DNA of 64,000 bases from an uncultured Pelagibacteraceae bacterium (GTDB lineage Bacteria > Pseudomonadota > Alphaproteobacteria > Pelagibacterales > Pelagibacteraceae), in the NCBI GenBank assembly GCA_902586125.1, contig CACIGI010000003.1, positions 1 to 64,000 on the forward strand, written 5' to 3'. Numbering within the stretch: the stretch's first letter is position 1; each line of letters opens with the position of its first letter. Positions 1-62,232 of the stretch are shown here, one piece after another. The notes beneath the pieces are model-generated. The model made no database searches and was not told the origin of the DNA. It saw only the letters and a program-made list of their open reading frames with translations. The position numbers were made by a program, and so were the translations under genes.

Positions 1-1020
1 TAGATAACCAATTGCTATGTGAATTTTATTTGTATTACCCACTCCGTGTGCATTATTATGTTCCCAAATAAAAAATAAACTAAAGTTATCATCATAAATA
101 ACATCAACACCTACTTCACCATTAATATTGTGTAATGCTCCAGAATTTAATTCAGTATCAAATTTACTTGAGCTATCACTTATGTAAGAATACTTTATGT
201 TAGAAGAGCGGTGTAAATTAGCTTGATATTCAATCTTGCCATGAGCTTTCATTTTATATTTTTTATTGTTTAATTCTTCAACTGAAGCTAGAGATAATCT
301 TAAATTTCTTGACTGAATACTTTGTTTATCAAATCTCATTGCAGTTTTTCCACTTTCAGAATAACTACTTAACAACGTATATCCTAAATCTACTTGAACA
401 GCTGGTATCAAGGTAAGTTCTTCTTTTTCAATTTCTTCTTTCAATTTTAAAGTTCCATAGATTTGTTTACCATTTCTATTTCCGGTTAATTGATTTCCAT
501 CTAAGACACTTGAGATATCTGAATTAAGTGCACCCATACCAATAACCGTATCTAAAAATCTACTATCGTCTTTTACTGGAGTAGTTGAATAATAAGTTAA
601 GTTATAAGTATTAGTATCTAATTTACTTCCATCGATACCAACTTTAACGTCATTTTGACTAAATCTAAACGCTAGCCCCTTAATCTCTCCATCATCAGTA
701 AACTTGTCAGCACCAATAGTAATACCATCGGTATAGATTTTTTTCTTAGAAGAAGTATCTGTTTCACGGACTTTACCAAAGGCTAAACTTCCCTCAGCCC
801 AATAAAAAATATCTTTATTTTTACTTTTTTCTTTAGATGTAGTGGAAACCTGAATAGCTTCAGCAAGAGAAGCTAACATTTGATTAGAAAAATTAAGTTT
901 AATATTTCTAAAGCTTAAATCTTGAAGATCTTTATTTCGTCTAATCCATTTTAAACGATTGAGCGCTGTGTCTGTTGAGTGTTCAATTGTTCTGTTTGCA
1001 ATATTAACTTGAGCTTCAGC
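1..1020. repeat. Direct DNA repeat (copy A) matching ~2234..3255, encoding the linker/barrel region
   Basis: Long near-identical stretches by eye, e.g. 'gccccttaatctctccatcatcagtaaacttgtcagcacc' and 'tagataaccaattgctatgtgaatttt' in both copies. Confidence 0.8.
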
Positions 1021-1950
1021 CACTCCTCTTCTATCTCCTTCAGTGATCTCTGTACATTTTCCAGCAAAAAGATTGAACGGACAAGGTAAGTGATACTCTT
1101 TAACTAAATCATCAATTCCTGCAACATACATTCTTAACCCGGAGGGACTAAAGTCTATACTACTGGCGTCAGTCTCGGTATCCCTTGCACCACCATCAAA
1201 AGAAGCTGTCGCAATATTAAAACCCTCAGATAAAGTATATTGATTAACAGCATTTACTTGTGAGTCTACCATAAACAATCTTGTACCACTTTGATTGAAC
1301 ACTATACCATTATGTGTAGATCCATTCAAAAGTGTTGTCACTGCAGCAGATCTTATAAAATTAGCTCCACCCGAAAGATCAAAACTTTTGTTTAATGAAT
1401 ATTGATGCAAGCCAAACGCTTGCTCAGTAATAATCATAATTTTGCCATCAGGACTAAAAGTTAGACCATTTAAAAAGCTAGTAAGTTGCGGTGAAACATC
1501 AATAAAATTTCCAGTATACGTTACTGATGCCGATGATATATCGAAATTTGTAGAGAGCGAGTATTCAAATACTTTTCTTTCTCCTCTTCCAGCAATAAAC
1601 ATTTTTGATCCATCATTGTTAAACTTAACTTTAAAAGGTTTACTAGATTGACCACTAACTGATAGGCTTTGGACAAAAGAAGCTGTCGATATGTTGTAAG
1701 GTGTTGATAAAATATATTCAAATACACTTCTTGTTTGTTGTTCAACCGTAAACATTTTTTTTCCATCATTACTAAATGTAATATCTCTAGGGTCGGTTGT
1801 TTGAGCTGAAGTATCGAATCTTCGTATTTCATAGTTGGAAGTAGAAAGTGTGTCGCCACTTGCTATAAAATTCGCATACGCGTTTTGAGCAAAAAAATTA
1901 GATATTACAAAAAAAAAAGATAAAAATATGTAGATCTTATTTTTTTTCAT
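1..1950 (-). CDS. Predicted surface/autotransporter-like protein, propeller-like repeats plus C-terminal barrel (3' end beyond window), paralog of 2057..4345
   Basis: Start codon at 1950 (MKKNKIYIFLSFFFVISNFFAQNAYA..., signal peptide); frame open to position 1 and ending ...IHIAIGYL, colinear with the 762 aa neighbour. Not in the ORF track, probably because no stop lies in the window. Confidence 0.8.
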   Translation of the reverse strand, partial: MKKNKIYIFLSFFFVISNFFAQNAYANFIASGDTLSTSNYEIRRFDTSAQTTDPRDITFSNDGKKMFTVEQQTRSVFEYILSTPYNISTASFVQSLSVSGQSSKPFKVKFNNDGSKMFIAGRGERKVFEYSLSTNFDISSASVTYTGNFIDVSPQLTSFLNGLTFSPDGKIMIITEQAFGLHQYSLNKSFDLSGGANFIRSAAVTTLLNGSTHNGIVFNQSGTRLFMVDSQVNAVNQYTLSEGFNIATASFDGGARDTETDASSIDFSPSGLRMYVAGIDDLVKEYHLPCPFNLFAGKCTEITEGDRRGVAEAQVNIANRTIEHSTDTALNRLKWIRRNKDLQDLSFRNIKLNFSNQMLASLAEAIQVSTTSKEKSKNKDIFYWAEGSLAFGKVRETDTSSKKKIYTDGITIGADKFTDDGEIKGLAFRFSQNDVKVGIDGSKLDTNTYNLTYYSTTPVKDDSRFLDTVIGMGALNSDISSVLDGNQLTGNRNGKQIYGTLKLKEEIEKEELTLIPAVQVDLGYTLLSSYSESGKTAMRFDKQSIQSRNLRLSLASVEELNNKKYKMKAHGKIEYQANLHRSSNIKYSYISDSSSKFDTELNSGALHNINGEVGVDVIYDDNFSLFFIWEHNNAHGVGNTNKIHIAIGYL

Positions 1951-2056
1951 AAATTTTATAAATTAATTTTTAATTATTAAGGAACAAAAATAACAGAAAT
2001 GTTAAAAATTTGAACTATAATTAGGTGTTTTACTATAACCTATATTTGAGCTTGGC

Positions 2057-4345
2057 TTAAAAAACTTTTCTTAAATTTAAGGCAATTTCATCAATGGTTT
2101 CAGGTCTCATCGCATTATTATTTAATAAATGAAAATCAATATCTAAACCATTAACATTTTTAGTATAAATATATTTTGATTTTAAAATTTCATCTCCTTC
2201 GATTTTAAAAGCAAAATTAGTATTTTTTTGCGGTAGATAACCAATTGCTATGTGAATTTTTTGAGTATGACTAAAGCCAAGTGCCTTATTATGTTCCCAA
2301 ATAAAAAATAAACTAAAGTTATCATCGTAAATAATATCAATACCTACTTCACCATTAATATTGTGTAATGCACCTGCAGTGAATTTAGTATCAAACTTAC
2401 CACTCGCACTATCACCAATATAGGAATATTTCGCATTTGAGGAACGATTTAGATTAGCTTGGTACTCAATTTTACCATGTTTTTTCATTTTATATTTTTT
2501 ATTGTTTAATTCTTCAACTGAAGCTAGGGATAATCTTAAATTTCTTGATTGAATACTTTGTTTATCAAATCTCATCGCAGTTTTTCCACTTTCAGAATAA
2601 TCACTTAATAGTGTATAACCAAAATCTATTTGACCTGCTGGGATTAAAATATGTTCATCTTTTTTAATCTCCTCTTTCAATTTTAAAGTTCCATAGATTT
2701 GTTTACCATTTCTATTTCCGGTTAATTGATTTCCATCTAAGACACTTAAAATTTTTGATTTCAAAGCGCCAATACCAATAACCGCATCTAAAAATCTATT
2801 GTCGTCTTTTACTGGAGTAGTTGAATAATAAGTTAAGTTATAAGTATCAGTATTTAACCCACTTCCAACCGTACCTACACTCACATCATTTTGGCTAAAT
2901 CTAAATGCTAGCCCCTTAATCTCTCCATCATCAGTAAACTTGTCAGCACCAATGGTGATACCATCGGTATAGATTTTTTTCTTAGATGATGTATCGGTTT
3001 CTCGAACTTTACCAAAGGCTAAACTTCCCTCAGTCCAATAAAAAATATCTTTATTTTTATTATTTTCTTTAGGAGATGTTGAAACTTTAATAGCTTCAGT
3101 AAGAGAAGCTAACATTTGATTAGAAAAATTAAGTTTTAAATTTTGATAACTTAAGTTTTGAAGATCTTTGTTTCGTCTAATCCATTTTAGTCGATTGAGA
3201 GCTGTATCGGTTGAGTACTCAATCGTTCTTTTTGCTACTTCAATTTGAGCTTCGACCAATCCTTTACGATCCCCTGCAGTAATTTCGGGGCACTTACCCT
3301 CAATGATATTAAATGGACAAGTTAAATCATAATGAAAGATCTCGTCTTGGCCATTGTCTCGATCACTTGTTACGTACATCTGTAATCCATTTTTGCTAAA
3401 TGCAATTCCTCGAGGTTGAGAGTTTGAGTCAGCCATTCCATGACCTGCTCCACCAATCTGTAAACTTCCATCTATTGTAAATGAAGATGTATCAAAAGCT
3501 TTTGAGAGTGAAATTTGAGTAACTCTCATAGTTCCGCCATGGGCATGACTTGTAACAAATAATCTTTTTCCATTTGCACTAAATCTCATACCTGCTGGAT
3601 TATCCGTTCCAATTGTAACTGATGTTGTAAATTCTATTCCTGCAGACGTTACTATTGATAATGTGGATAAATCATATGGAGTTGAAAGTGTGTATTCATA
3701 AAGTCTAGAGTCAACCGAGCCATTATGAACATCATAAAAAAGTAAAAACAGTTTAGAACCATCATTATTAATTTCTATTGATTGCAATCTGTGTAATCTT
3801 AAATTTTGAGTATAATCAAAATTTCCAGCTTGACTGCCAGTGTTAAAGCCACTTGAATCAAGATCTGTTGTTTCTGAAGCAAGATTACAAGTTGAGATGT
3901 CATATGGTGAACTTAAATTAAATACGTAAGCCTTATCTTTATCAGCTACATTAGCATTACCTGATCTTGTAACGACCAATAATTTCATTCCATCTTTACT
4001 GATTTCTAAATCATATATTTGTTCTAATGCATCTGCACCAGTCAATATACATCTCTCGCTGTCTCCCGCATAAACTCTCGAAGAAATGTCGTAAGGAATA
4101 GATAAATTATATTCATTTATAAAATGAAGTTCATTGGCATCTTTCATATTAAAATTGTTTGAATAACTTACAAACACTTTTGTTCCATTATGGTTGAATT
4201 CTATACCGGCAGTAAGACCAGCAGTACCACCAGAGGCATAGTTATCAAAATCAACTTCTTGATTAAAGGTTACATATCCCGCAAATAAATTGGTACACGG
4301 AAATAGAAATAAAAAAACTAAAATGAAATTTCTAATTTTTTTCAT
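2057..4345 (-). CDS. Predicted surface protein with repeated 'LSxPYDIS...F..DGxKMFV' units and C-terminal autotransporter-like beta-barrel
   Basis: 762 aa, signal peptide, repeated propeller-like units, CPFN..xC linker, terminal Phe (RKVF) typical of outer-membrane proteins. Confidence 0.75.
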   Translation of the reverse strand: MKKIRNFILVFLFLFPCTNLFAGYVTFNQEVDFDNYASGGTAGLTAGIEFNHNGTKVFVSYSNNFNMKDANELHFINEYNLSIPYDISSRVYAGDSERCILTGADALEQIYDLEISKDGMKLLVVTRSGNANVADKDKAYVFNLSSPYDISTCNLASETTDLDSSGFNTGSQAGNFDYTQNLRLHRLQSIEINNDGSKLFLLFYDVHNGSVDSRLYEYTLSTPYDLSTLSIVTSAGIEFTTSVTIGTDNPAGMRFSANGKRLFVTSHAHGGTMRVTQISLSKAFDTSSFTIDGSLQIGGAGHGMADSNSQPRGIAFSKNGLQMYVTSDRDNGQDEIFHYDLTCPFNIIEGKCPEITAGDRKGLVEAQIEVAKRTIEYSTDTALNRLKWIRRNKDLQNLSYQNLKLNFSNQMLASLTEAIKVSTSPKENNKNKDIFYWTEGSLAFGKVRETDTSSKKKIYTDGITIGADKFTDDGEIKGLAFRFSQNDVSVGTVGSGLNTDTYNLTYYSTTPVKDDNRFLDAVIGIGALKSKILSVLDGNQLTGNRNGKQIYGTLKLKEEIKKDEHILIPAGQIDFGYTLLSDYSESGKTAMRFDKQSIQSRNLRLSLASVEELNNKKYKMKKHGKIEYQANLNRSSNAKYSYIGDSASGKFDTKFTAGALHNINGEVGIDIIYDDNFSLFFIWEHNKALGFSHTQKIHIAIGYLPQKNTNFAFKIEGDEILKSKYIYTKNVNGLDIDFHLLNNNAMRPETIDEIALNLRKVF
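2234..3255. repeat. Direct DNA repeat (copy B) matching ~1..1020
   Basis: See copy A. Confidence 0.8.
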
Positions 4346-4352
4346 GCAAAAA

Positions 4353-6557
4353 CTAGAAAGTACCAGAAATCTCTAAATTTGCACCATAATCTGGGATTTT
4401 ACTAAATAAACTATAATTAGAATTTAATTTTAAATTAAAATTACCAAAATTTTTTAAATAACTAATCGTCGTCTTATTATTATTTGTTGGATCATAAATC
4501 ACATCAAAATTTGCTTGATGAACTTGTTTTTTTCCTAATTTAAATAATAAACTATCTGAGTAAGCACTATCGCTTAAACTTTGAAATCTTTCATAGTTGA
4601 TTGCAAAAGTATAACCATTAATATTCGCATATTCGAAACCAATATTTCCTCTAGTATTATGTAATGAATGTTTTTTTATAGTTTTTCTAACTAGTACATT
4701 GTCGTGATAATTTTTAAAAAAATGATCAATATCTGGAGTTAAATCATAAATATACTCTACAAAACCATTTCTACTGATAGTTTTTTCATCTAAATATAAA
4801 ATATCATCAAACTTTAGACCTCCTGAAATATTTCCAGTCTTAAATGTTAGTCTCTCATGTAAATCCACACTATTTGTAGCAGAGGTACCAAAATCTGTAT
4901 ATTCTGAGAGCTGAGTGATGCCTAATTCTAATTTTCCAAAAGGAATTAAATCATAGTCAGTATACTCATTTTCATTTTGATAAGTGAGTGATGTAAAAAT
5001 TTGTCTACCATATCGCTCTCCTGTAATTGTGCCCTTTACTAATTGATCAATACTTAAGAAACTTGCCCCAATTAAAGCGTTTAAATTTGATTTGCCGTCA
5101 AGAGGTAAGCTGCTATAGAGATTTAAGGTATAGGCTTGTGAGTCTAGTTTACTTCCAGCATCTGTATCAATTTTGACATCATCATTGCCATATCGAAAAG
5201 CCAAGCCAAAAATTTTATTATCAATTAATTTATCAGCTCCAAACATAATACCTCTTGTTCTTATGTCTTTTGGTTTAACGAAACCTTTTTCGCCTACTCT
5301 GCCAAATGAAATATCTCCATGAGACCAATGAGACCAATTTCTCATATTCTTGAAAGGATTTTTATCTTTTAAGGATGCATGAATATATTGATTATTATTA
5401 AGTGAGTTTTCTAAATTATGTTTTAATGAGTTCTCTAACTTATGCTTAAATGAAGCTAAAATTGGATTATTGATATCTAGTTTAATATCATGACTGTTTA
5501 AATTTCTTTTTTCCTCATTTCTACGTAACCAATCGAATCTTCTGAAAATTGTATTTGAATTTTGATAAATTACATTTTTAGCAATTTCTGCTTGAGCCCC
5601 TATTGCTGTAGCAACTTCTGCTTCACAAATTACAATTCCAAAGGGGCAACTTAGATCATACTCAAAAACTTTATTTTTTAAGGTACCATTCCAAGTAACC
5701 TGATAAAATTTCATACCATTTTTCGCAAAACGCATACCTCCTGCTGATCCATCAGCTCCTGCAGCACTAAAAACATTCACTACACTTCCAACGAAAGTTG
5801 CTGTTGAAGTATCAAAACCAGTACTTAACTTATAAACATAAATCTTATTATTTGTTGATGCTTCGTTTGACTCAATAACATACATTCTTGTACCATCATC
5901 ATCAAAATCAAAATCTTGTAATGTTTTAGAATTTTCGGTTATTGCAAAAAAATTTCCAAAACTTGCTGAACCTGGCAAAAAGGGAGTGCTTAGATTAAAT
6001 TCAGCAATACCAACTGTACCGTTGACATCCATCAAGAACATTTTTGTTCCATCGTTATTAAAACGTATACCATGAGACCTACGAGCACTATCCGAGCCAC
6101 CTTCACCAGCTGCAAAGGTTGCCCAATCTACCCCATCATCTGCATCTTTTGAAAAATTAGATATATCATAAGGAGTCGATAAACTATGGACATTCATATT
6201 CCCAGCCATATCTATTGCATATAGTTTTGTACCATCGCTATTAAATGTGTGACCTTCCAATCGATTACTTACTAAAAAATCACCACTGTCACCACTATTT
6301 ACATTTAAAGTAACTATTGAAGCAGTATCTATTGATGACACATTAAATGGAATACTTAAATCATACTGGGTTATAACAGGCGAAGTTCCATACTGAGAAA
6401 AGTGTATTCTGGTTCCATCTGGAGTTAAAGTTACTCCAATCGCTTGATTTACATTTGTGTCTGCTGAGCGTACAAAAGTTGGCTTAACTTCTGCTTTCAA
6501 ATATGTAAATTGAAATACAAGTAAAAATAATATTAGGCAATTTATTATTTTTTGCAT
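4353..6557 (-). CDS. Predicted surface protein, same family (propeller-like repeats plus barrel)
   Basis: 734 aa, signal peptide, repeats 'LSTPYDISNFS', 'NNDGTKMFLM', CPFGIVIC linker, ends NLEISGTF. Confidence 0.75.
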   Translation of the reverse strand: MQKIINCLILFLLVFQFTYLKAEVKPTFVRSADTNVNQAIGVTLTPDGTRIHFSQYGTSPVITQYDLSIPFNVSSIDTASIVTLNVNSGDSGDFLVSNRLEGHTFNSDGTKLYAIDMAGNMNVHSLSTPYDISNFSKDADDGVDWATFAAGEGGSDSARRSHGIRFNNDGTKMFLMDVNGTVGIAEFNLSTPFLPGSASFGNFFAITENSKTLQDFDFDDDGTRMYVIESNEASTNNKIYVYKLSTGFDTSTATFVGSVVNVFSAAGADGSAGGMRFAKNGMKFYQVTWNGTLKNKVFEYDLSCPFGIVICEAEVATAIGAQAEIAKNVIYQNSNTIFRRFDWLRRNEEKRNLNSHDIKLDINNPILASFKHKLENSLKHNLENSLNNNQYIHASLKDKNPFKNMRNWSHWSHGDISFGRVGEKGFVKPKDIRTRGIMFGADKLIDNKIFGLAFRYGNDDVKIDTDAGSKLDSQAYTLNLYSSLPLDGKSNLNALIGASFLSIDQLVKGTITGERYGRQIFTSLTYQNENEYTDYDLIPFGKLELGITQLSEYTDFGTSATNSVDLHERLTFKTGNISGGLKFDDILYLDEKTISRNGFVEYIYDLTPDIDHFFKNYHDNVLVRKTIKKHSLHNTRGNIGFEYANINGYTFAINYERFQSLSDSAYSDSLLFKLGKKQVHQANFDVIYDPTNNNKTTISYLKNFGNFNLKLNSNYSLFSKIPDYGANLEISGTF

Positions 6558-6693
6558 AACCCATATTATAATTTAAAAAATATCAATAAAGTCAAAAAGA
6601 ACTAAGTTAAAAATTTTACTCTTAAAAAATATTAATTTCCTATCATAAAAATAATTATTTTTTTAAGTAATATTTTGGTTATTTGCTTTTAAA

Positions 6694-9099
6694 CTAGAAA
6701 GTTCCAGAAATTTCTAGATTTACCCCATAGTCTGGAATTTTATCATATAAACTATAGTTAGAATTTAATTTAAGATTTAAATTACCAAGATTTTTATTGA
6801 AGCTGATGTTCGCATAATTTTGATTGAGAGGATCAAAATCTAAAGCAAAATTATTTTCGTCTGTTTCTTTTGAGCGACTAATTTTAATTATAAACCTTTC
6901 AGTGATAGCTTTATCTATGAAATCATCATAATTTAAAGGTGATCCTTTAATAGCGAATGTTTTCTCATACATCGGTGATAAAGTGAGACCATCAGGATAA
7001 ATCAGTTCAAAACCTAGTCTGGTTCTTAGATTTGATTCAGAATATGCCCCGTTAATAGTGTCAGTATTTACTTGATTTGAACCTACTAGTGAATAATCAT
7101 AATCAATATCACTTGTTAAATCATAATAAAATTCCATTCCTCCCATCGGTTGAAAGGTTTTATCATTTATAATTATCTGATCTGTCTCGAACAAAAACCC
7201 ACTGGAAATTTGTCCACTTGTGAACGTGTCTTCATGGTATCTGATATTTTGCGCAGGTGAAATTGCATCACTTATAAAATCTGTATATTCACCTAACCTT
7301 GTAATTCCAAAAGTCAATTTTGTTGTAGGTGTTAGATTTAATTTACTATAGGTATTTTTAGTTCTAAAATCTATTGCAGTGAACAATTGTTTACCGTATC
7401 TTTGGCCTGATTTTTTTCCTAAATAATGACTATCTATCTTAAGCGCACTCAAACCTAAAACTGCATTTAAATATTTTTCTTTATCCTTTGGCATAACGCC
7501 ATATAAATTCAATGTTAACGAGTCCATGTGAATATTTTGTTTTGTTTGAGCAATGTTCGATCTGCCATTGCCATATCTTATTGCCCAACCAAAAAATTTA
7601 TTATCACTGAATTTTCTATCAGCACCAAATGTTATTCCCTCAGTTCTAATACTTTTTGCATTTTCAAATCCCAATTTATCAAAATTACTTAAGGATAAGT
7701 CACCTAAGCTCCATGAAGACCATTTAGATTTCTTCTGATCCTTTTTTGGGGTACTTACAAGAGTAGCTATCTTTTCTTTAGCAGCTGGCTTTAAGCTCAT
7801 TGCTAAACTCTTCAATAAAGGATTTGGATAATTGATGTTGATGTTATGACTGGTGAAGTTTTCTTCATCTCTATTTCTTTTGATCCATTCAAATCTGTAA
7901 AAAATTGAGGAGATATTTAAAGCAATATTTTGTTTAGCTAATTCAACTTGAGAACTAATACTTGCGGTTGGATCTGATACACAAGCAACAACACCAAAAG
8001 GACATTCAAGGTCAAATTGATAAATATTATCCACCGCCTGACCCCTATCTACTTGTGAAATAAATAATTTCATACCATCGCTTGAAAAGGAAAATCCCCA
8101 TATTATTCCATGACCAACTGGGTATCCTTTTGCTGTATCTGCTGCTCGTAAAGCTCCTCCAGGGGACACACGATAAAGAAAATCGTGGCCCCCAACATGA
8201 GTTGCTGTTGAAACATCGTAATTTTTACCTAAACTAAATTGTTGAATACTATTAGTATGATCAGATCCTTTAAAAACTGAGATAAACATTGCACTACCAT
8301 TATCATTAAATTCAATATCTCTAGTTGATGTATCATCTGCAATTCCAATTGTACGTAAGTCTAGACTATGTATTTGTGTAGCAGATGTGATATCAAATGC
8401 TGTTGATAATGAATAAGTTATTAGCGTAGGTGTGTCAGTAGTTGCAAGCAAAGAATACATTTTTGTACCGTCTCTGCTAATCGAAAAACCACCTATTGAA
8501 TGATTATTAAAATCAAATTCATTTACATATACCGCTGTTCTAAAATCAAAAGCTGTGCTTAAATCAAATCTATGTACTTCAGATTCAGCACTCATAATAT
8601 AAAAAATTTTACCACCTTGAGCTACATGAATACTTCTATATGCAGTAGTTTCAGTGCTCATACCTTGTGCCAAAAAATCTGGATGATCAATATCAAAACC
8701 ATCAATATCATCACAAGTATGTGTTCCAAGGAAAGTTTTTACAGTGTTTAATTCAAATGGAGTACTAACTTTATTCATAGATAAATCAAGATCACCAAAA
8801 TCAGATTCATTCATATTAGCATTTGTAGTAAAAACCATTCTACCGTCATTGCTCCATATAATATCTCTAAGATCTTCGGTTCGATCATTATCAAGCTCAA
8901 CTGTTGTTCTTTGAGAACTAAAACAACCGGATGCACCAGAAGGTATTCTATTATCTTTATGTGTAAGTGTTAAAGCGGCGGCTAGAGCTAGTGTAGAAAA
9001 AAAAATCCCTAAAAGGATTAGGAATACATTTGTTTTAAGAGAACCTTTTAATACAGATTTTAAAATCTTTTTTGATTTTAATTGTCTCAAAACTTTCAT
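6694..9099 (-). CDS. Predicted surface protein, same family (propeller-like repeats plus barrel)
   Basis: 801 aa, hydrophobic N-terminus, repeats, CPFGVVAC linker, C-terminus nearly identical to the 734 aa paralog (YDKIPDYGVNLEISGTF). Confidence 0.75.
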   Translation of the reverse strand: MKVLRQLKSKKILKSVLKGSLKTNVFLILLGIFFSTLALAAALTLTHKDNRIPSGASGCFSSQRTTVELDNDRTEDLRDIIWSNDGRMVFTTNANMNESDFGDLDLSMNKVSTPFELNTVKTFLGTHTCDDIDGFDIDHPDFLAQGMSTETTAYRSIHVAQGGKIFYIMSAESEVHRFDLSTAFDFRTAVYVNEFDFNNHSIGGFSISRDGTKMYSLLATTDTPTLITYSLSTAFDITSATQIHSLDLRTIGIADDTSTRDIEFNDNGSAMFISVFKGSDHTNSIQQFSLGKNYDVSTATHVGGHDFLYRVSPGGALRAADTAKGYPVGHGIIWGFSFSSDGMKLFISQVDRGQAVDNIYQFDLECPFGVVACVSDPTASISSQVELAKQNIALNISSIFYRFEWIKRNRDEENFTSHNININYPNPLLKSLAMSLKPAAKEKIATLVSTPKKDQKKSKWSSWSLGDLSLSNFDKLGFENAKSIRTEGITFGADRKFSDNKFFGWAIRYGNGRSNIAQTKQNIHMDSLTLNLYGVMPKDKEKYLNAVLGLSALKIDSHYLGKKSGQRYGKQLFTAIDFRTKNTYSKLNLTPTTKLTFGITRLGEYTDFISDAISPAQNIRYHEDTFTSGQISSGFLFETDQIIINDKTFQPMGGMEFYYDLTSDIDYDYSLVGSNQVNTDTINGAYSESNLRTRLGFELIYPDGLTLSPMYEKTFAIKGSPLNYDDFIDKAITERFIIKISRSKETDENNFALDFDPLNQNYANISFNKNLGNLNLKLNSNYSLYDKIPDYGVNLEISGTF

Positions 9100-9175: not shown

Positions 9176-9466
9176 TTATCGAAGAACACTTAGTGGATCG
9201 TGATAACAACCTGTTTCCTCTATCGTCTCAAAAAATATATTATTGATTTCTGAAGAATGAAAAGTTTGACAAATTCTTTCTGCTTCTAAATTATTAGCAT
9301 AGTCTTTTTTCGCTTCGTTAATCGCTAATGAACTTGATAAAGAAGTTGTTGCTTGAGCAAAACTTCCTGTGTGAGCCAATGTTATACTCGGACCTATTAC
9401 AGCAGTGTATTGAGTACAATTACTCAATATCGGTAATAGTAACAATAAAAAAAAGATTCGTTTCAC
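9176..9466 (-). CDS. Small predicted lipoprotein
   Basis: 96 aa; lipobox-like MKRIFFLLLLLPILSNC. Confidence 0.6.
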   Translation of the reverse strand: MKRIFFLLLLLPILSNCTQYTAVIGPSITLAHTGSFAQATTSLSSSLAINEAKKDYANNLEAERICQTFHSSEINNIFFETIEETGCYHDPLSVLR

Positions 9467-9529: not shown

Positions 9530-11581
9530 TTATTTCTTCTTTATCAGCTCAGTATTATTAATGTTAATTGCCATACAAGTGATGTCATCCCTTAACTTTT
9601 CTGCACCCCAGTTAAGCTCTTTTTCGATAGCTTCGACGATGGACTTTGGTGTTACCTGTGACATTTCGTTTATAATTTTTTGTACCCCTTCAGCGCCTAA
9701 CTCTTCACCATTTTTCATATACCCTTCAGTAACTCCATCCGTGTAAACCACAAAAGTTTTATCTTTAAGATTAATAGTATTTGATTTCACCATCGACTCG
9801 GTGAAATATTTAACAATGCCAATGGGTGGCATTTCGGATTTGATATATTTATAATTTTTATTTTCATCAAAAGTAAGAATGCTTTCATGACCTGCATTTA
9901 TAAAAACTAACTCGCCAGTTTTAATATTTAATTTACCAAAAACAGCGGTGACAAACATTCCTTTAAACTTTGCCTCCACTAATTCATTATTGACACCAAA
10001 GACAACTTTTTCTAGAGGAAATTTTAAATTAGTTAAAGTTCTAAAGATAGAAGATGCTTTTGCCATATACATTCCAGCTTTAACCCCTTTGCCAGATACA
10101 TCAGCTAAGGTGAAAAAATATTCTTCAGGTGTTGATCTGACAACATCAAAATAATCTCCTGATACATCTCTAGCTGGAACGTTTTTGGCAAAAATAAAGT
10201 TTTCAAACTTTGAAATATCAGGGAATAAGCTTTTTTGAACTCCTGCAGCAAGTTCTCGTTCTTTTAAAAGTTTAGCTTCTTTTTGTAAATTAGCTAAAGC
10301 CATTTTATTTTCCTCTATAAATCTAAAATATAATCCTGTTAAAAAAGTTATTGTTACAATGAAAATAGGATAACTAAAATCTACTAACTCTGATCTAAAT
10401 TTATAAATAGAAAAACCAATAATAATAATTGCTAAAATGTTACCAAAGAAGATTGATAAACTATATTTTGGTTTAATTTTTTGTGATAAAATAAAAGTTA
10501 AAAGAGCAATAATAATAGAAAAGATTAGCTCAAAAATATAAGTGTTTGGATTTCTAATTAAATATGATTGATCTAAAATATTTTCAATAACATTAGCGTG
10601 AACTTCTACTCCAGGAATGGTTACACCGAGTGGTATTTTAACTAGATCGAATAAACCTTGAGCGGAAGCACCAATTAAAACATACTTATTTTCAAAAAAA
10701 CTTTTTTCAAAATTGCCTTCATAAACATCACCAGCTGAAATATATTGTTTCTTTTGTGATTTTTTATATTTAATCCAAATAATACCATTAGGATCAGACT
10801 CTACTTTATGAGGTCTAGCACTTATTCTTTGAATGCCTACTTCATTTAATTCAACATAAATATTTTTTTGTTTTGATCCAACTCGAACCATTTCTAAACC
10901 CATGGTTGGATATATTTTTTTATTAAACTGAACTATTAGAGGTAATGATCTAATAATACCATCGAGCTGATCTAAAAAAGAAATTGAGCCCAAACCTTGA
11001 ACATTTTTTTCTAATTTTTCTAATGAACCTATTGAGTAAGGATAGGCATAAGTAAATTCCTCTGGCTTTCCTCCTTTGGAAAGAAATCGTGCTTTTGCTT
11101 TTCGATTATAATTCGCATGAGAAGGTACATTACTACCTAACACTGCAATAATTGATTTTGACTCTTTTAATTTTTCAGCAAATAAATCATCTGGCCCTTT
11201 AAGATTTTGTAATTCAGAGACATCTGATGGAATTAGATTATATGATTTGATAATTGCATCAGGTGACTGCTTATCTTTTTCAGTAAAAAATATATCGAAC
11301 CCAATTGCTTTTGGGTTTGCGGTATTTAATTGATCAAGGATTTTTGCAAACACTGTTCTATTCCATGGAAATTGACCAAACTTACCAAGGCTTTGTTCAT
11401 CAATATCAATGATAACCACTTCACTCTCTTTTTCTTCAACAAAAATTTTTTGGTACAAATCAAAACTTAAATAGGAAACTGACTTGATAAATGCTGGATT
11501 TAAAATTTTAAGAAAAATTAATAAGGTAAGTACAATTAAGAAAACAAAATAATTTAGATTTTTTTGTACAAAAGCTTCCAC
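9530..11581 (-). CDS. CHASE2 sensor domain plus SpoIIE-type PP2C serine phosphatase
   Basis: 683 aa; CHASE2-like N-terminus (VVIIDIDEQSLGKFGQFPWNRTVFAKIL), TM helices, SpoIIE motifs DVSGDYFD, ADVSGKGVKAGMYMAKAS, NAGHE, YTDGVTE, DDIT. Confidence 0.9.
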   Translation of the reverse strand: MEAFVQKNLNYFVFLIVLTLLIFLKILNPAFIKSVSYLSFDLYQKIFVEEKESEVVIIDIDEQSLGKFGQFPWNRTVFAKILDQLNTANPKAIGFDIFFTEKDKQSPDAIIKSYNLIPSDVSELQNLKGPDDLFAEKLKESKSIIAVLGSNVPSHANYNRKAKARFLSKGGKPEEFTYAYPYSIGSLEKLEKNVQGLGSISFLDQLDGIIRSLPLIVQFNKKIYPTMGLEMVRVGSKQKNIYVELNEVGIQRISARPHKVESDPNGIIWIKYKKSQKKQYISAGDVYEGNFEKSFFENKYVLIGASAQGLFDLVKIPLGVTIPGVEVHANVIENILDQSYLIRNPNTYIFELIFSIIIALLTFILSQKIKPKYSLSIFFGNILAIIIIGFSIYKFRSELVDFSYPIFIVTITFLTGLYFRFIEENKMALANLQKEAKLLKERELAAGVQKSLFPDISKFENFIFAKNVPARDVSGDYFDVVRSTPEEYFFTLADVSGKGVKAGMYMAKASSIFRTLTNLKFPLEKVVFGVNNELVEAKFKGMFVTAVFGKLNIKTGELVFINAGHESILTFDENKNYKYIKSEMPPIGIVKYFTESMVKSNTINLKDKTFVVYTDGVTEGYMKNGEELGAEGVQKIINEMSQVTPKSIVEAIEKELNWGAEKLRDDITCMAININNTELIKKK

Positions 11582-11640: not shown

Positions 11641-12894
11641 TTACTTCTTTTTTCTTCTTTTCTTCTTGGCTTTTCTCTTTTTAGCAGCTCTTTTCTTTTT
11701 AACGATCTTTCTCTTCTTCGCTACTTTTTTCTTAATCTTCTTTTTAGGTTTTTTCTTTTTAACTACTTTCTTTTTCTTCTTAACTACTTTTTTCTTTTTA
11801 ACTTTTTTCTTTTTAACTGCTTTTTTCTTTTTAGCAGGTTTTTTCTTCACTGCTTTTTTCTTAGTAGCTTTTTTCTTAGTAGCTTTTTTCTTAGTAGCTT
11901 TTTTCTTTTTTCCTTCTTTTTTCTTAACTACTTTTTTCTTTTTAGAACCTTTTTTAGTAGCTTTTTTCTTTTTACCTTTTTTCTTATCTACTTTTTTAGC
12001 TTTTTTCTTTTTATTTTTTTTCTTTTCTGCTTTAGCTTTTTTCTTTTTAGCTTTTTTCTTCTCAGCTCTTTCTTTTTTAATAGCTACTTTCTTCTCTTTA
12101 TCTTTTTGAATATTTTCTCTTATAATTGATTTAATTTCTTCTTTTTCAAAACCCATCGACTTAAGCTCTTTTCTTAACTGCTTTTTCATTTCTTTTCTCT
12201 TACCTTTTTTTTCCTCCGGTGAGAGTTTGGCAACTCTTAGAGCTTTCATTTTTTTATTGAATTTCTTTAACTGATTCTTTGTAATTTTTTTTGCTTGTCC
12301 TGGCGCTTTACCTTTCGTCATCGAAGCCATGCTGTATGGATTATCAAGTAAGGTTGAACCTAAGTTGTTTCCAACTAAAACTGCTCCGGGTCTCATCCCT
12401 AAAGTATTATTTTTTCCTGGACCTATTAATAGAGTATCTGTCTTACCTTTTGATACAACTGTTTGAAACTCTGTTCCTCGTGATCCAAGTGTTCCCTCTG
12501 GCACTTCCACTGTCAAACTATCAGGATTTTTTTTACTAATTAAACCAGAGATAACCTTCAAACTTCCTTGTTTTACACTTGCAACTATTTTTCCATCATT
12601 TGTTGCGGGATCAAATATAAATGTATCCATTACAACTTCTGAGTCTTCACCTATAGTAAATGTTGATTGGTCTAAAAGTAAAATTTGTGTTCCGGATCCT
12701 GCACCAGCAACAATTGTTTCATTTAAATAAATTTTGTCACCAGCTTTTAATTCTCTTGTTTCAGTTTTAACAGTTCCTGAAATTGCACCTACAATTCCAA
12801 CTAATTGTTTTTCAATAGTTAATTTTTCCTCAGCAAAAACACTTGTGCTGATCATGAAAATAAGACCTGTTATAACTGATAGTAATTTTCTCAT
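11641..12894 (-). CDS. FecR-domain protein with long Lys/Ala-rich C-terminal tail
   Basis: 417 aa; signal peptide, FecR-like (GDKIYLNETIVAGAGSGTQILLLDQSTFTIGEDSEVVMD...VKQGSLKVISG...EVPEGTLGSRGTEF), then ~170 aa of K-rich low complexity. Confidence 0.85.
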   Translation of the reverse strand: MRKLLSVITGLIFMISTSVFAEEKLTIEKQLVGIVGAISGTVKTETRELKAGDKIYLNETIVAGAGSGTQILLLDQSTFTIGEDSEVVMDTFIFDPATNDGKIVASVKQGSLKVISGLISKKNPDSLTVEVPEGTLGSRGTEFQTVVSKGKTDTLLIGPGKNNTLGMRPGAVLVGNNLGSTLLDNPYSMASMTKGKAPGQAKKITKNQLKKFNKKMKALRVAKLSPEEKKGKRKEMKKQLRKELKSMGFEKEEIKSIIRENIQKDKEKKVAIKKERAEKKKAKKKKAKAEKKKNKKKKAKKVDKKKGKKKKATKKGSKKKKVVKKKEGKKKKATKKKATKKKATKKKAVKKKPAKKKKAVKKKKVKKKKVVKKKKKVVKKKKPKKKIKKKVAKKRKIVKKKRAAKKRKAKKKRRKKK

Positions 12895-14356: not shown

Positions 14357-16519
14357 TTATTTTCCAATACTTATTAAAGTTAAGTCATCAGATAATTTTC
14401 GGTTTTGGCTCGTTCCTATTACAGATTGAGTAATGCTGTCTAATTGTTTAACTGTATCTTTATTAAAGTTTTGTTCAATAATACCAATTGAACCATCGAT
14501 CCCTATTTCCTCACCTTTATCGTTTAAACTTTCAGATAAACCATCGGTAAAAGCGTAAAACCTCGAACCATTTAATTTTGTTTTATGAATGTTATAAACA
14601 CTTTTATCTTTTTGTTTAATCACACCTAATGGTGGTGCCGAACTTTCAAACTGATCATATTTACCATGTCCATTTCTTAAAATTGCAGGTTGATGTCCTG
14701 CGTTTACCCATCTGATTTCATCTGTAATCAAATTGTACTCTCCAACTATAGAGGTTACAAACATACCAGCCGTTTTAGTATTATTTAAATCATTGTTCAT
14801 ATGAAAGACCATTTCATCGGGGTCTACTTTTGATTGTGCTAAAACTTCAAATAAAGTTGAAGCCTTAGCCATGACCATTCCAGCATGAATTCCTTTACCA
14901 GCAACATCAGCAATTATAAAATAAATACTATCATTATGAGGATAAAAACTGAAAAAATCACCAGATACTTCTCTTGCTGCAATATTTATTCCATGTACAG
15001 GATAATTATTTAAGTTTCTTTTTGGTAAAAAATTTTCTTGAACTTTAACTGCAAGTTTTACTTCTTTTGAAATTCTTTCTCGCCATTTATTTTTTTCATC
15101 TTCGCTAGTCTCAAGCTTGCTCATAAGCTTATTATAATAAAGACCAATTACACCTCCGGCTGTAAAAGGATCTTGAGGACCTCTTACTTTAAGATCACCT
15201 GACTCTGATTGTTTGTCTAAAATTGATATTAAATCATGTTCAATGGACACAGCATTATGCTCAGCGATATTTAAACCCAATTCTTCTTGAACAGGGCTTA
15301 CTCTAAGTGGATAAAATTTATTAAAAACACTAAGGATTATAAATGAAGAGGTAAATGTAAATGCTCCAATCGAAATTATACCAATTAATTGTATTTTAAC
15401 TTGTGAAAATCTATCAAGATCTGTATCTAAAATACTTAAGTCGCTAAATAAACCAACCGCTAATGTTCCCCAAACACCTGCTGCTAAATGAACTGGTACC
15501 GCTCCAACAACATCATCAATTTCAAATTTATTTAATACTTCGTTTACTATAATTGCAATTATCGCTCCGACGATACCAACAAATATTGAGGTAACTGAAG
15601 TCATTGAATTACATCCAGCAGTAATTGCAACCAAACCAGCTAAAGGACCTAAAATGATATAAAATGGATCTGGCTTTTTAAACCTTAGATATGAAATACC
15701 TAAACCGGTTAACAACCCAAAAGCTGCTGCTAAGAAAGTATTTATTAAAATTAAAGGAACAGCCTCATCCATTGCACCATTGCTACCCCCATTGAAACCG
15801 AACCAACCAAACCACAAAATAAGGGTACCTAACACTGCTAAAGGAAAACTTGAGCCAGTAAACTTTCCTTTGTTCGCATCAGAATACTTACCAATCCTTG
15901 GACCTAAAATGATAACCGCTGCTAACGCAATCCATCCACCCACTGAGTGAACAATTGTACTTCCTGCAAAATCGATAAAACCTAAATCTGATAACCAGCC
16001 CGTAGTTTTGACTGTACCTGTAATTGCTAAAAGTTGATCAACTGTATCATATTTAGATAAATAACTCGAAGACCAAGCCCAATGACCAACAATTGGATAA
16101 ATTATTCCTGTCGCTAAAACAGTCATGATTAAATAACCATTAAACTTCATTCGTTCAGCGACAGCTCCTGAAATAATAGTTGCTGCTGTTGCAACAAACA
16201 TCGCTTGAAAAACAAAGTATGTCATGTACTCAGCTTTATCTGTTTTAAAGAAAAATAAATCGGTACCAAATAATCCATTATAAGAAGTACCGAACATCAA
16301 ACCAAAACCAAAAATCCAAAAGATAACAACGGAGACACCAAAATCAGCAGCGTTTTTTAAGGCCACGTTGATGCTATTTTTATGTCTAGATAAACCAGTT
16401 TCCATGCACATAAAACCAGCCTGCATGATAAAAACTAAGATTGCACAATCGATCACCCACAAGGTATCAATGTTACTCGTTAATATATCAATCACGTCTT
16501 GTGCCATAACTTTATCCAT
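14357..16519 (-). CDS. Ammonium transporter (Amt) fused to SpoIIE-type PP2C phosphatase
   Basis: 720 aa; Amt motifs (MQAGFMCMETGLSRHKN, DFAGSTIVHSVGGW, VPVHLAAGVWGTLAVGLFSD), then EVSGDFF, ADVAGKGIHAGMVMAKAS, NAGHQ, FTDGLSE, DDLT. Confidence 0.95.
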   Translation of the reverse strand: MDKVMAQDVIDILTSNIDTLWVIDCAILVFIMQAGFMCMETGLSRHKNSINVALKNAADFGVSVVIFWIFGFGLMFGTSYNGLFGTDLFFFKTDKAEYMTYFVFQAMFVATAATIISGAVAERMKFNGYLIMTVLATGIIYPIVGHWAWSSSYLSKYDTVDQLLAITGTVKTTGWLSDLGFIDFAGSTIVHSVGGWIALAAVIILGPRIGKYSDANKGKFTGSSFPLAVLGTLILWFGWFGFNGGSNGAMDEAVPLILINTFLAAAFGLLTGLGISYLRFKKPDPFYIILGPLAGLVAITAGCNSMTSVTSIFVGIVGAIIAIIVNEVLNKFEIDDVVGAVPVHLAAGVWGTLAVGLFSDLSILDTDLDRFSQVKIQLIGIISIGAFTFTSSFIILSVFNKFYPLRVSPVQEELGLNIAEHNAVSIEHDLISILDKQSESGDLKVRGPQDPFTAGGVIGLYYNKLMSKLETSEDEKNKWRERISKEVKLAVKVQENFLPKRNLNNYPVHGINIAAREVSGDFFSFYPHNDSIYFIIADVAGKGIHAGMVMAKASTLFEVLAQSKVDPDEMVFHMNNDLNNTKTAGMFVTSIVGEYNLITDEIRWVNAGHQPAILRNGHGKYDQFESSAPPLGVIKQKDKSVYNIHKTKLNGSRFYAFTDGLSESLNDKGEEIGIDGSIGIIEQNFNKDTVKQLDSITQSVIGTSQNRKLSDDLTLISIGK

Positions 16520-16593
16520 AATCTTAATTACCTACCAAATAAATTTCAACTAGCAATTAATTAAGTGATCAATTTGATGTTAATGAGGGATTT

Positions 16594-17064
16594 TTAACAA
16601 TTATCGTTTTCTAAAAAATCTCCAACACGACTTAAGGTAAGAACACAGCCAGTGGCAGCTGTTTCACCAACTTCTAAGGCCATTATAAAATAATTAGAGG
16701 GATTAGTACTATCACTTGCGATACAAATTTCATAACCCATTTCTTTTGCTGTTTTGCTAGTCGGATTGTTTTGATCAGCAAATTCGTAGGTTAACTTTCC
16801 AAACAAATTAGTCTCTATATCTCTTGATGTTGTTGCTGACCCGTTGCAAGCGTTTTCATCGCCATTATCAAAAAAATTACCAGTATTTGAAATTTCTTCA
16901 GTTTGAGCAAGAGATACTTGCTGCATATATGATTTGGTTGCTGTTTTTTTTGTTCCAGCAACATAGCCATTATAACTTATAGTGGCAACGGCTGATAAAA
17001 TTCCGAGAATTGCAACAACTACTAAAAGTTCGACTAAACTAAAGCCAGAACTTTTAGTAGTCAT
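16594..17064 (-). CDS. Type IV pilin
   Basis: 156 aa; prepilin signal GFSLVELLVVVAILGILSAVATISYNGY, C-terminal Cys. Confidence 0.85.
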   Translation of the reverse strand: MTTKSSGFSLVELLVVVAILGILSAVATISYNGYVAGTKKTATKSYMQQVSLAQTEEISNTGNFFDNGDENACNGSATTSRDIETNLFGKLTYEFADQNNPTSKTAKEMGYEICIASDSTNPSNYFIMALEVGETAATGCVLTLSRVGDFLENDNC

Positions 17065-17101
17065 AAATATTTTTTCTACTCAAAACTTTAAATATTAAAA
17101 G

Positions 17102-17590
17102 CTATTCTACATCTACGGTATTTATTAATGTAGAGTCTCTACTATCAACATCGCATGCTGGACCAGTACCAATCTCCTCATAGCAAGTAGTTATACTTAT
17201 AGTACTACCGGCAACTGTTACATGAGTAACACCTTTAACAGTACCTGCTGCGGCACCATCTGTTGCAACTGTTTGTACAGCAGCGGTAGCAGTATCGAAT
17301 GCATTTTTGAATTCAGCCAAATCATCTACTGCTGCTGCTGGAACGCCACTTGCTGCAGCATTACATGTATAAGCCGTGCCTTTCGTGAATACAGTACCAT
17401 CTCCCATACTACATTTTGCTAATTCAGCAGCTATAAATTTTGTTACAGATGCATGATTAGATTTTGTTGCATTCTTTTTTGCTCCTGATGTGTAGCCTTG
17501 GTATGCAACAGTTCCTACTGCAGCTAAAATACCAATAATCGCTACCACCACCAATAATTCGATAAGTGTAAATCCTTTGTTATTTTTCAT
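17102..17590 (-). CDS. pilA: Type IV pilin (major pilin candidate)
   Basis: 162 aa; KGFTLIELLVVVAIIGILAAVGTVAYQGY; C-terminal Cys pair CYEEIGTGPAC; own strong promoter and RBS (AGAGGA). Confidence 0.85.
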   Translation of the reverse strand: MKNNKGFTLIELLVVVAIIGILAAVGTVAYQGYTSGAKKNATKSNHASVTKFIAAELAKCSMGDGTVFTKGTAYTCNAAASGVPAAAVDDLAEFKNAFDTATAAVQTVATDGAAAGTVKGVTHVTVAGSTISITTCYEEIGTGPACDVDSRDSTLINTVDVE

Positions 17591-17679
17591 TATGTTCCTC
17601 TTTATTATTAATTAATTAATTAAACAATAATGAAAATTTAATAAAAATATAAGTAATGTAAACTAATAAATTACCTTAA

Positions 17680-17709
17680 ATTATAGTATAAATAGCAAAT
17701 CTTGATCAA
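17680..17709 (-). promoter_or_regulatory. Predicted sigma70-type promoter of the pilin gene, -35 overlapped by a palindrome
   Basis: Minus strand TTGATC-18 bp-TATAAT; TTGATCAA palindrome at 17702..17709. Confidence 0.55.
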
Positions 17710-17763
17710 ATTGGGTTTAATTTTAATAGGTTTTTTGTTATTAGCTTATATTGAGTTTATATA

Positions 17764-18048
17764 ATGAAATTTAAAGTAACAGAAAACGAAAACATAAGTA
17801 CAGTTTTTCTAAATGGGGAGATTGACATGGATATTGCTGACAATGTTAGAGAAGTTATATTTCCTCTTATCGACTCTGGAAAGGAAGTGCATTTAAACAT
17901 GAAAGATGTTCAGTACATGGACTCTTCTGGAATATCTGTGATAGTAGAAAGTAATCAAAGAGCAAAAGAAAAAAACACTAAAGTTGAATTAAAAGAAGTC
18001 AGTCAACCTGTTGAAAAAGTTTTAGCTATGGCAAGGAAATTTCTATGA
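17764..18048 (+). CDS. STAS-domain anti-anti-sigma factor-like protein (RsbV/SpoIIAA family)
   Basis: 94 aa; YMDSSGISVIVE with the conserved phospho-Ser context. Confidence 0.9.
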   Translation: MKFKVTENENISTVFLNGEIDMDIADNVREVIFPLIDSGKEVHLNMKDVQYMDSSGISVIVESNQRAKEKNTKVELKEVSQPVEKVLAMARKFL

Positions 18049-18344
18049 CCTATAAAGTTACAGATGAAGGTGATACTAGCACTGTTTTTTTAGATGGTGA
18101 AATTGATATGGATAAAACCGAAGGTGCTAAAGAAGTTATTTTCCCTCTTATCGATGCTGGAAAAAATGTGAACTTAAATTTAAGCAATGTTCAGTACATG
18201 GATTCTTCTGGAATATCAGTTCTCATTGAAAGTCATCAAAAAGCTTTAGAAAAAGGTACTAAGCTAATTATCAAAGATGTGAGTAAATCTGTTTTAAAAG
18301 TAATTATGATGGCTAAATTAGAGCAAATTTTAAATTTGGAGTAA
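18045..18344 (+). CDS. STAS-domain anti-anti-sigma factor-like protein, tandem paralog
   Basis: 99 aa; YMDSSGISVLIE; ATGA start/stop overlap with upstream STAS gene. Confidence 0.9.
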   Translation: MTYKVTDEGDTSTVFLDGEIDMDKTEGAKEVIFPLIDAGKNVNLNLSNVQYMDSSGISVLIESHQKALEKGTKLIIKDVSKSVLKVIMMAKLEQILNLE

Positions 18345-18351
18345 TCCTTTA

Positions 18352-18789
18352 ATGAGTACTGAAAGTACAAATCAAAATAATTTATCAGAAAAGAAAGATT
18401 TTTTAGTACGATCATCTAGTTTAAAAGATGTGAGAAATTTTTCTAGAGAAGTCTTTGAAAAATTTAAAATAAACGAAGATCTTAGAGAAGAATTAGTATT
18501 AGCTATAGCAGAGGCTGCACAGAATATTGTCAAACATGCTTATAGGGATTTTCCAGATACACAAGATAGAATGGCGGTAAGGATCTCTTGTTCTGATAAA
18601 GAACTTGAAATTGCTTTTTTTGATAAAGGCAAACCAGTTGAAAAAAGTAAGGTTAAACATAGGGCAATTGATGACGTCAAACCTGGTGGACTAGGAACTT
18701 TTTTTATTCAGGAAATTATGGACTCAATTAAATTTAAAGAGGGCGATAAACCTTGGATAAATAATTTAGTATTAACAAAGAAATTATAA
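18352..18789 (+). CDS. HATPase_c serine kinase / anti-sigma factor-like (RsbW/SpoIIAB family)
   Basis: 145 aa; N-box-like LVLAIAEAAQNIVKHAY, G-box-like VKPGGLGTFFIQEIMD. Confidence 0.88.
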   Translation: MSTESTNQNNLSEKKDFLVRSSSLKDVRNFSREVFEKFKINEDLREELVLAIAEAAQNIVKHAYRDFPDTQDRMAVRISCSDKELEIAFFDKGKPVEKSKVKHRAIDDVKPGGLGTFFIQEIMDSIKFKEGDKPWINNLVLTKKL

Positions 18790-61853: not shown

Positions 61854-61904
61854 GATTGTTATTGAATCTCTTGCAATTCCTTTTATATTAATAAAGTTGG
61901 TTTT

Positions 61905-62160
61905 CCAACTATGACGATAAACGAATTTCGTAATAACCATTGCGGACGTGGGGGCAGTACCCACCACCTCCACCAATTACAACTTATGGGGGTGAACTAG
62001 ATTCGACGGGTGACTAAAGGCTATTCTTTCGTTCGGAATTGTTCCTCCGTAAAGGGCTAATTTATAAATGCTAACGAAAGTTACGCAATTGCTGCTTAAT
62101 TAATTTTTATTAATTGAGTAAACGGGGTACGGGGCACCTGGCAACAGAACGCCCCCTAAA
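61905..62160 (+). ncRNA. ssrA: Circularly permuted two-piece tmRNA (acceptor piece ~61905-61975, coding piece ~61988-62160)
   Basis: Acceptor piece ends GGACGTGGGGGCAGTACCCACCACCTCCACCA (CCA at 61973-61975); coding piece starts GGGGGTGAACTAGATTCGACGGG (61988); 7-bp acceptor stem GGGGGUG/CACCUCC with G3-U; tag ORF 62070-62099. Outer ends approximate. Confidence 0.93.
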
Positions 62161-62232
62161 AGTATTTTTTGTCGCTTAAAATTTGAAAAAATTATTTAGT
62201 AAAATTTTAATTAAAGGTGTAGGAAAGTTTAA

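Follow-up and report, generated by a model that had tools for sequence, protein, structure and literature searches.

A SAR11 gene array for autotransporters with predicted five-bladed propeller passengers and separate passenger and barrel histories

The window analyzed here is a 64,000-nucleotide stretch of an uncultured Pelagibacteraceae bacterium (contig CACIGI010000003.1, positions 1 to 64,000), and its first 9,099 nucleotides hold a tandem array of four paralogous genes that, by sequence and model, encode type Va autotransporters of SAR11. Each gene combines a signal sequence, a passenger, a cysteine loop with a linker, and a C-terminal barrel, laid out as follows (positions in the window in parentheses).

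1–1950, reverse strand: gene 1, 650 residues, reading frame open at the 3′ end, which lies beyond the contig; signal sequence, propeller at about residues 41–287 (1830–1090), Cys-290 and Cys-299, linker helix 304–338, barrel from residue 384 (801–1)
2057–4345, reverse strand: gene 2, 762 residues; passenger residues 25–342 (4273–3320), Cys-343 and Cys-352, linker to 3038, barrel 3037–2060
4353–6557, reverse strand: gene 3, 734 residues; passenger to Cys-304 and Cys-311 (5648 and 5627), barrel from 5327
6694–9099, reverse strand: gene 4, 801 residues, first gene of the array; passenger to Cys-366 and Cys-373 (8004 and 7983), barrel from 7713

The gaps from gene 1 up to a small lipoprotein gene upstream of gene 4 measure 106, 7, 136, and 76 bases, a spacing that is operon-like. 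Gene 1 is genuinely truncated, because the start of the window is also the start of the contig; its orthologue in a relative (L043:12921-15104) finishes in LRKVF. An earlier note, made from the DNA letters alone, had described four same-strand genes of ∼650+, 762, 734, and 801 residues with signal sequences, and the open reading frame (ORF) coordinates and the hydrophobic N termini agree with it. The signal sequences were recognized by reading these N termini, which form helices (residues 2–14 and 3–24) in the AlphaFold models. For comparison across the population, we assembled 159 family members, most of them from single amplified genomes. Both the repeats and the CPF..C loop with its R..W(I/L)RRN linker are real features, the cysteine pair being kept in 154 and the linker arginine in all 159 members; likewise, the terminal phenylalanine of the three complete array proteins, a C-terminal signature of the outer-membrane kind, recurs in 130 of 141 distinct complete relatives. 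The label "giant", however, was overstated, as 650–801 residues is small for an autotransporter.

The C-terminal halves of all four proteins match the Pfam autotransporter barrel PF03797 above its curated cut-off (E-values 7.7e-29, 4.2e-24, 1.6e-17, and 1.4e-16 for genes 1–4). Genome-wide there are five such matches, every one a member of the propeller-autotransporter family; the fifth paralogue lies on another contig (C28) of the same genome. We modeled gene 2 at full length with an alignment of 26 relatives and the gene 1 passenger with an alignment of 78 diverse passengers. The gene 2 model (predicted local distance difference test (pLDDT) 74.9, predicted template modeling score (pTM) 0.68) consists of a propeller, a helix at residues 359–391, and a barrel from residue 434. 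In the gene 1 passenger model (pLDDT 89.9, pTM 0.82), 20 strands form five four-stranded blades in the right order, and the N-terminal strand 41–46 completes blade 5 and closes the propeller. A helix also precedes the barrel in gene 1 (residues 304–338). When gene 2 was compared with the PDB by Foldseek, EstA, AaaA, NalP (template modeling score normalized to the target (TMt) 0.80), EspP, and BrkA (TMt 0.81) ranked at the top. The array proteins resemble the type Va autotransporters EstA, AaaA, NalP, and BrkA in barrel fold and in the order signal–passenger–helix–barrel, whereas the passenger of those proteins is a β-helix or a GDSL esterase and that of the array proteins a predicted five-bladed propeller. 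The propeller plus autotransporter-type barrel proposed in the earlier note is thus borne out by Pfam and by AlphaFold and Foldseek, the latter two being the check that it had named. By analogy with the autotransporter family, the propeller would be displayed on the cell surface. Past the Pfam barrel, ∼80 residues of gene 2 (residues 682–762, positions 2302–2060) add four or five strands at pLDDT 46–55, and the barrel may exceed 12 strands.

Searches of PHROGs, NCBIfam, and PDB sequences returned nothing specific for the array proteins, and Foldseek of the passenger against the PDB gave partial matches to seven-bladed WD40 proteins only (score normalized to the query (TMq) 0.40–0.45); there is therefore no solved close relative. 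The N-terminal halves have weak generic propeller matches in Pfam (gene 1, SGL at 5.6e-6 and Lactonase at 2e-4; gene 2, PD40 at 1e-3). Such SGL, Lactonase, and Phytase-like matches could point to an enzyme, a gluconolactonase, lactonase, or phytase-like protein, but these are short or close to the cut-off, and generic propeller repeats account for them. SMP-30/gluconolactonase, lactonase, and phytase-like enzyme families have six to seven blades, against five in our model, and across the 78 passengers no invariant Asp, Glu, or His exists beyond the repeat turns. An enzymatic passenger, including an SMP-30/gluconolactonase or a seven-bladed lactonase, is very improbable and was rejected because the passengers lack a conserved acidic or histidine site, besides having five predicted blades.

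A related genome (G021) carries the same array at the same place, which allows the two halves of each gene to be compared separately. For gene 3, the passenger has hardly changed between the two genomes (synonymous divergence (dS) 0.03), whereas the barrel has (dS 0.61); this passenger is nearly identical across four related array records, and the barrel has diverged. Gene 4 shows the reverse: its orthologue has a different passenger (dS 1.14, nonsynonymous divergence (dN) 0.61), at a dS of 0.33 in the signal sequence and 0.56 in the barrel and a dN of at most 0.07 in both. Genes neighboring the array differ from those of the relative by dS 0.34–1.09.

The same decoupling runs through the 159 members. 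Among the 388 pairs whose barrels are close, 113 have passengers that differ at a proportion of synonymous differences (pS) of at least 0.6, and among the 372 pairs whose passengers are close, 114 have barrels that differ as much; since the sequences are related, these pairs are not independent events, and a greedy choice of non-overlapping pairs leaves 18 of each kind. The extremes are a passenger pS of 0.10 with a barrel pS of 0.71, and 0.71 with 0.07. Pairs with close barrels mostly share the slot and the upstream DNA, whereas pairs with close passengers mostly lie in different slots. In 50 random members, passenger and barrel each reject the tree of the other (differences of 2687 and 2493 log-likelihood units, approximately unbiased test p ≤3e-7); the same test on a set chosen for its extremes gave a difference of ∼3000 log units. 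Twenty of 25 barrel types carry at least two passenger types, and 14 of 30 passenger types occur on at least two barrel types. Averaged difference profiles shift at residues ∼16–45 and 340–365 of gene 2, which mark the breakpoints. These sequence comparisons show that the signal sequence, the upstream DNA, and the barrel stay with the chromosomal slot, that propellers have repeatedly moved from strain to strain and from slot to slot, and that the junctions of exchange fall at the signal sequence and the Cys-loop/linker.

Alternatively, no heads are exchanged at all, and barrels are homogenized by gene conversion beside passengers that evolve fast under weak constraint. Genes 1 and 2, which lie in tandem, do have barrels that are 81–92% identical in DNA and passengers that are not similarly alike; the ratio of nonsynonymous to synonymous substitution (dN/dS) is also higher in the passenger (0.79) than in the barrel (0.25). 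Gene conversion cannot, however, account for passengers at pS 0.06–0.2 on barrels at pS 0.6–0.7, nor for gene 3 with its near-identical passenger on a diverged barrel. We regard it as improbable as the sole explanation, and barrel conversion probably happens alongside exchange. Could the mosaic instead be an artefact, made by chimeras of whole-genome amplification or by repeats wrongly assembled in single-cell genomes? Single amplified genomes make up most of the records, and tandem paralogues are difficult for short reads. Against this, the same modularity is found in two single-contig genomes: G460 has two tandem genes with a barrel pS of 0.14 and a passenger pS of 0.64, and a gene of G446 (1,308,759 bp) compares with G460 at 0.30 in the barrel and 0.59 in the passenger, both cases being of the close-barrel, distant-passenger direction only. 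Furthermore, the junctions keep the reading frame, coincide with domain boundaries, and come in pairs, with upstream DNA and signal sequence remaining with the slot, and one passenger type occurs with two barrel types, each combination being seen in three records. An artefact is therefore extremely improbable.

Variation within the propeller is concentrated on one face. Between close pairs, the replaced fraction is 0.45 in the BC loops and 0.38 in the DA loops, compared with 0.11 in AB, 0.12 in CD, and 0.18–0.24 in the strands; length varies in the DA and BC loops and hardly at all in AB and CD. Pooled over independent pairs, dN/dS is 0.76 (0.60–0.94) in the top loops, 0.15 (0.10–0.21) in the bottom loops, stated as a range of 0.15–0.23 for the bottom face, and 0.42 in the strands. 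Conservation of AB and CD is partly structural, because the repeat motifs lie in these turns. The order of the strands places the end of the last C strand, and with it the start of the Cys loop and linker, on the conserved face. With the chain leaving the propeller there, strand topology predicts that the variable face looks outward from the cell, opposite the membrane linker.

Viral proteins proved to be the closest relatives of the passenger. The best viral Foldseek models are marine phage proteins (TMq 0.70, root mean square deviation 2.1 Å, 28–33% identity), tblastn found propeller relatives in phages of Roseobacter, Lentibacter, Maribacter, and Synechococcus, and a scan with the canonical passenger found 270 IMG/VR stretches that encode such relatives. 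An earlier viral scan with the full-length alignment had found no relative because its patterns were derived from the barrel. In 82 loci (80 from IMG/VR and two phage records), none of 98 phage propeller ORFs contains the autotransporter barrel, and these ORFs often hold several propellers. A PHROG tail fibre-like N terminus was present in three of seven phage propeller proteins scanned, and the propeller genes of the Lentibacter and CRP-13 phages sit amid tail genes. These marine tail-fibre-type propellers (Lentibacter phage ICBM2 gp51, Roseobacter phages CRP-9, CRP-13, and CRP-738, and many IMG/VR contigs) are homologous to the passenger at 28–42% identity and TMq ∼0.70, in proteins that differ from those of the array by having several propellers each and no barrel. 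What appears to be new is that the passenger has its nearest relatives in these phage propellers and not among solved structures. In a tree, SAR11 passengers and phage propellers mostly form separate clusters, and 59 phage propellers group with three passengers at low basal support; a recent transfer of passengers from phages is not favored, as the phage propellers cluster apart. The receptor-binding protein of phage phi11 also uses a five-bladed propeller for surface recognition, and a cavity in it was proposed to accommodate N-acetylglucosamine (PMC4901313). Its likeness to the SAR11 passenger is an analogy of fold type, and the phi11 propeller is outside the 50 best Foldseek matches of the passenger.

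Phages might also drive the diversity, with propellers serving as phage receptors or decoys and passengers being exchanged as common variants are killed. The variable, outward-predicted face, the exchange of cassettes, and near-identical passengers circulating among divergent strains all fit this explanation, and the SAR11 O-chain cluster, the usual suspect, has recently been reported to lack a phage arms race (PMC11898729), so that a different variable receptor could fill this role. However, specificity for partners or surfaces fits the same pattern, no phage is known to use these proteins, and the relatives in phages are proteins of the tail side, which share homology with the passenger and are not known to bind it. 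We consider a phage-driven origin of the variety possible, though less likely than not.

The host is a SAR11 bacterium: the top 80 relatives retrieved from GTDB genomes belong to Pelagibacteraceae/Pelagibacterales. Matches occur in 74 of 297 Pelagibacteraceae genomes and in 54 of 127 near-complete ones (∼43%), some covering part of the profile only. Beyond this family, relatives were found in two of 385 genomes of the class (own genome aside), both of them propeller-plus-barrel proteins. Relatives of 1970–3270 residues occur in G463, G546, G556, G663, and L055, with partial matches to the family profile, some to the passenger half only; they are possibly multi-propeller giants.

Members of the family had been listed before. 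Hypervariable region 1 (HVR1) of Candidatus Pelagibacter ubique HTCC1062 was reported in 2007 to contain three "autotransporter" genes (SAR11_0042, 0044, and 0046), and the copy number of type V autotransporters differs between HTCC1062 and HTCC1002 by the deletion of one copy (PMC2217521). These are the same family at the same kind of place, and the gene order in G446 (carB, three family members, a 114-residue protein, a helix-turn-helix regulator, an SBF symporter, two Amt genes, proteins of 109 and 96 residues, and pilin) agrees with that of HVR1 in Table 7 of the same paper. The array genes themselves are thus not new, because the array corresponds to HVR1 of HTCC1062, and "poorly characterized" is a fair label for a family that is not unknown. 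The sections of the HTCC1062/HTCC1002 account that we cite do not mention the passenger fold, cassette exchange, or a relation to phages. The open-access literature searched, outside which most subscription papers lie, contained no report of propeller passengers or passenger exchange in SAR11 and none on expression of propeller autotransporters; novelty is thus suggested and not proven. The phage-fibre kinship of the passenger, the separate histories of passenger and barrel, and the one-face variation are apparently new, and none of the three could be read from the letters that the earlier note had to work with.

Beyond the array, the window also contains the following genes:

9176–9466, reverse strand: small lipoprotein of 96 residues, upstream edge of the slot
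9530–11581, reverse strand: CHASE2-SpoIIE phosphatase, adjoining the array and outside the family
11641–12894, reverse strand: protein with a FecR domain and a very long tail rich in lysine, next to the CHASE2-SpoIIE gene; synteny kept in relatives
14357–16519, reverse strand: ammonium transporter (Amt) fused to a SpoIIE phosphatase
16594–17590, reverse strand: two proteins with a prepilin N-methylation motif, type IV pilus locus
17764–18789, forward strand: two STAS genes and a HATPase gene, between pilin and type II secretion-like genes
61881–62190, forward strand: transfer-messenger RNA of the starred (ARAGORN) type, tag ANESYAIAA

In G021 a homologue of the lipoprotein occupies the corresponding position, and a similar 96-residue gene occurs in HVR1 of HTCC1062, which also has the Amt-SpoIIE fusion twice (L260:14069-16219 and 16323-18560); this fusion is possibly an ammonium-sensing input to the partner switch. 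The STAS and HATPase genes and the two nearby SpoIIE proteins make up a complete-looking partner-switch set. The pilus and partner-switch surroundings that had been described earlier are present, with prepilin-like, T2SSF, T2SSE, secretin, STAS, HATPase, CHASE2-SpoIIE, and Amt-SpoIIE genes. A surface protein of another type, of the 591-residue class (cluster n36), repeatedly adjoins propeller autotransporters in other loci (L071, L072, L075, L086, L087, L089, L095, L096, and L103).

This neighborhood bears on a further explanation, in which the propellers act with the adjacent pilus as adhesins or in nutrient capture, binding particles, polysaccharide, or neighboring cells, and their variety reflects many ligands with no arms race. 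Pilus and type II secretion-like genes are repeatedly linked to the family in several genomes. In addition, a different, larger autotransporter of coastal SAR11, reported in 2025, lies near type IV pilus genes, as the array does, sometimes in hypervariable regions, and was proposed to be an adhesin; it differs from the array in being encoded by a gene of 5–9.5 kb and in being coastal and repeat-rich, with no propeller or exchange mentioned in the passages that we cite (PMC12636525). Several slots nevertheless lack pilus genes, SAR11 is free-living, and no conserved ligand pocket is apparent, the strongly conserved positions being glycines, hydrophobic residues, the cysteine pair, and the Asp and Lys of the repeat turns. 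As a full account of the variety, we consider this explanation rather unlikely.

The reading that we consider likely overall is that the array encodes SAR11 type Va autotransporters with swappable propeller heads for surface recognition. We infer an adhesin or binding role, with the propeller as a recognition head (an adhesin or ligand-binding domain). Homologous recombination between slots and strains would supply alternative heads, and their variety may be favored by time-changing or frequency-dependent selection, for example through phage adsorption, grazers, or partner and surface specificity. The helix of ∼33 residues would sit in the pore, as in known autotransporters.

Several points weigh against this reading. 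Single amplified genomes, where chimeras can occur, supplied most of the sequences, and the number of barrel strands is not fixed because the last 80 residues were modeled at low confidence. The models predict a helix and give no prediction for release or retention of the passenger. Adaptive diversification is suggested and not proven, because the pooled dN/dS of the top face is below 1. Finally, adhesion of SAR11 cells is reported not to have been observed (PMC12636525).

If propellers are swappable recognition heads, the array is likely a hot spot at which the most abundant bacteria of the ocean vary their surface recognition. We tentatively suggest, at somewhat under even confidence, that a population-wide pool of interchangeable propeller heads with a variable outward face moves among fixed slots, and that this could be a main locus of an arms race or of partner recognition, built on a domain that is also carried on phage tails. 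No heterotrophic bacterial group of the surface ocean is more abundant than SAR11, and its genome is streamlined, yet ∼43% of the near-complete Pelagibacteraceae genomes sampled have matches to the family. Should the propeller faces be recognition surfaces, they would offer a molecular target for asking which surface feature of SAR11 faces strong, changing selection, and they would bear on which receptors pelagiphages use. The family represents a class of autotransporters with a predicted propeller passenger and what may serve as a natural modular display system.

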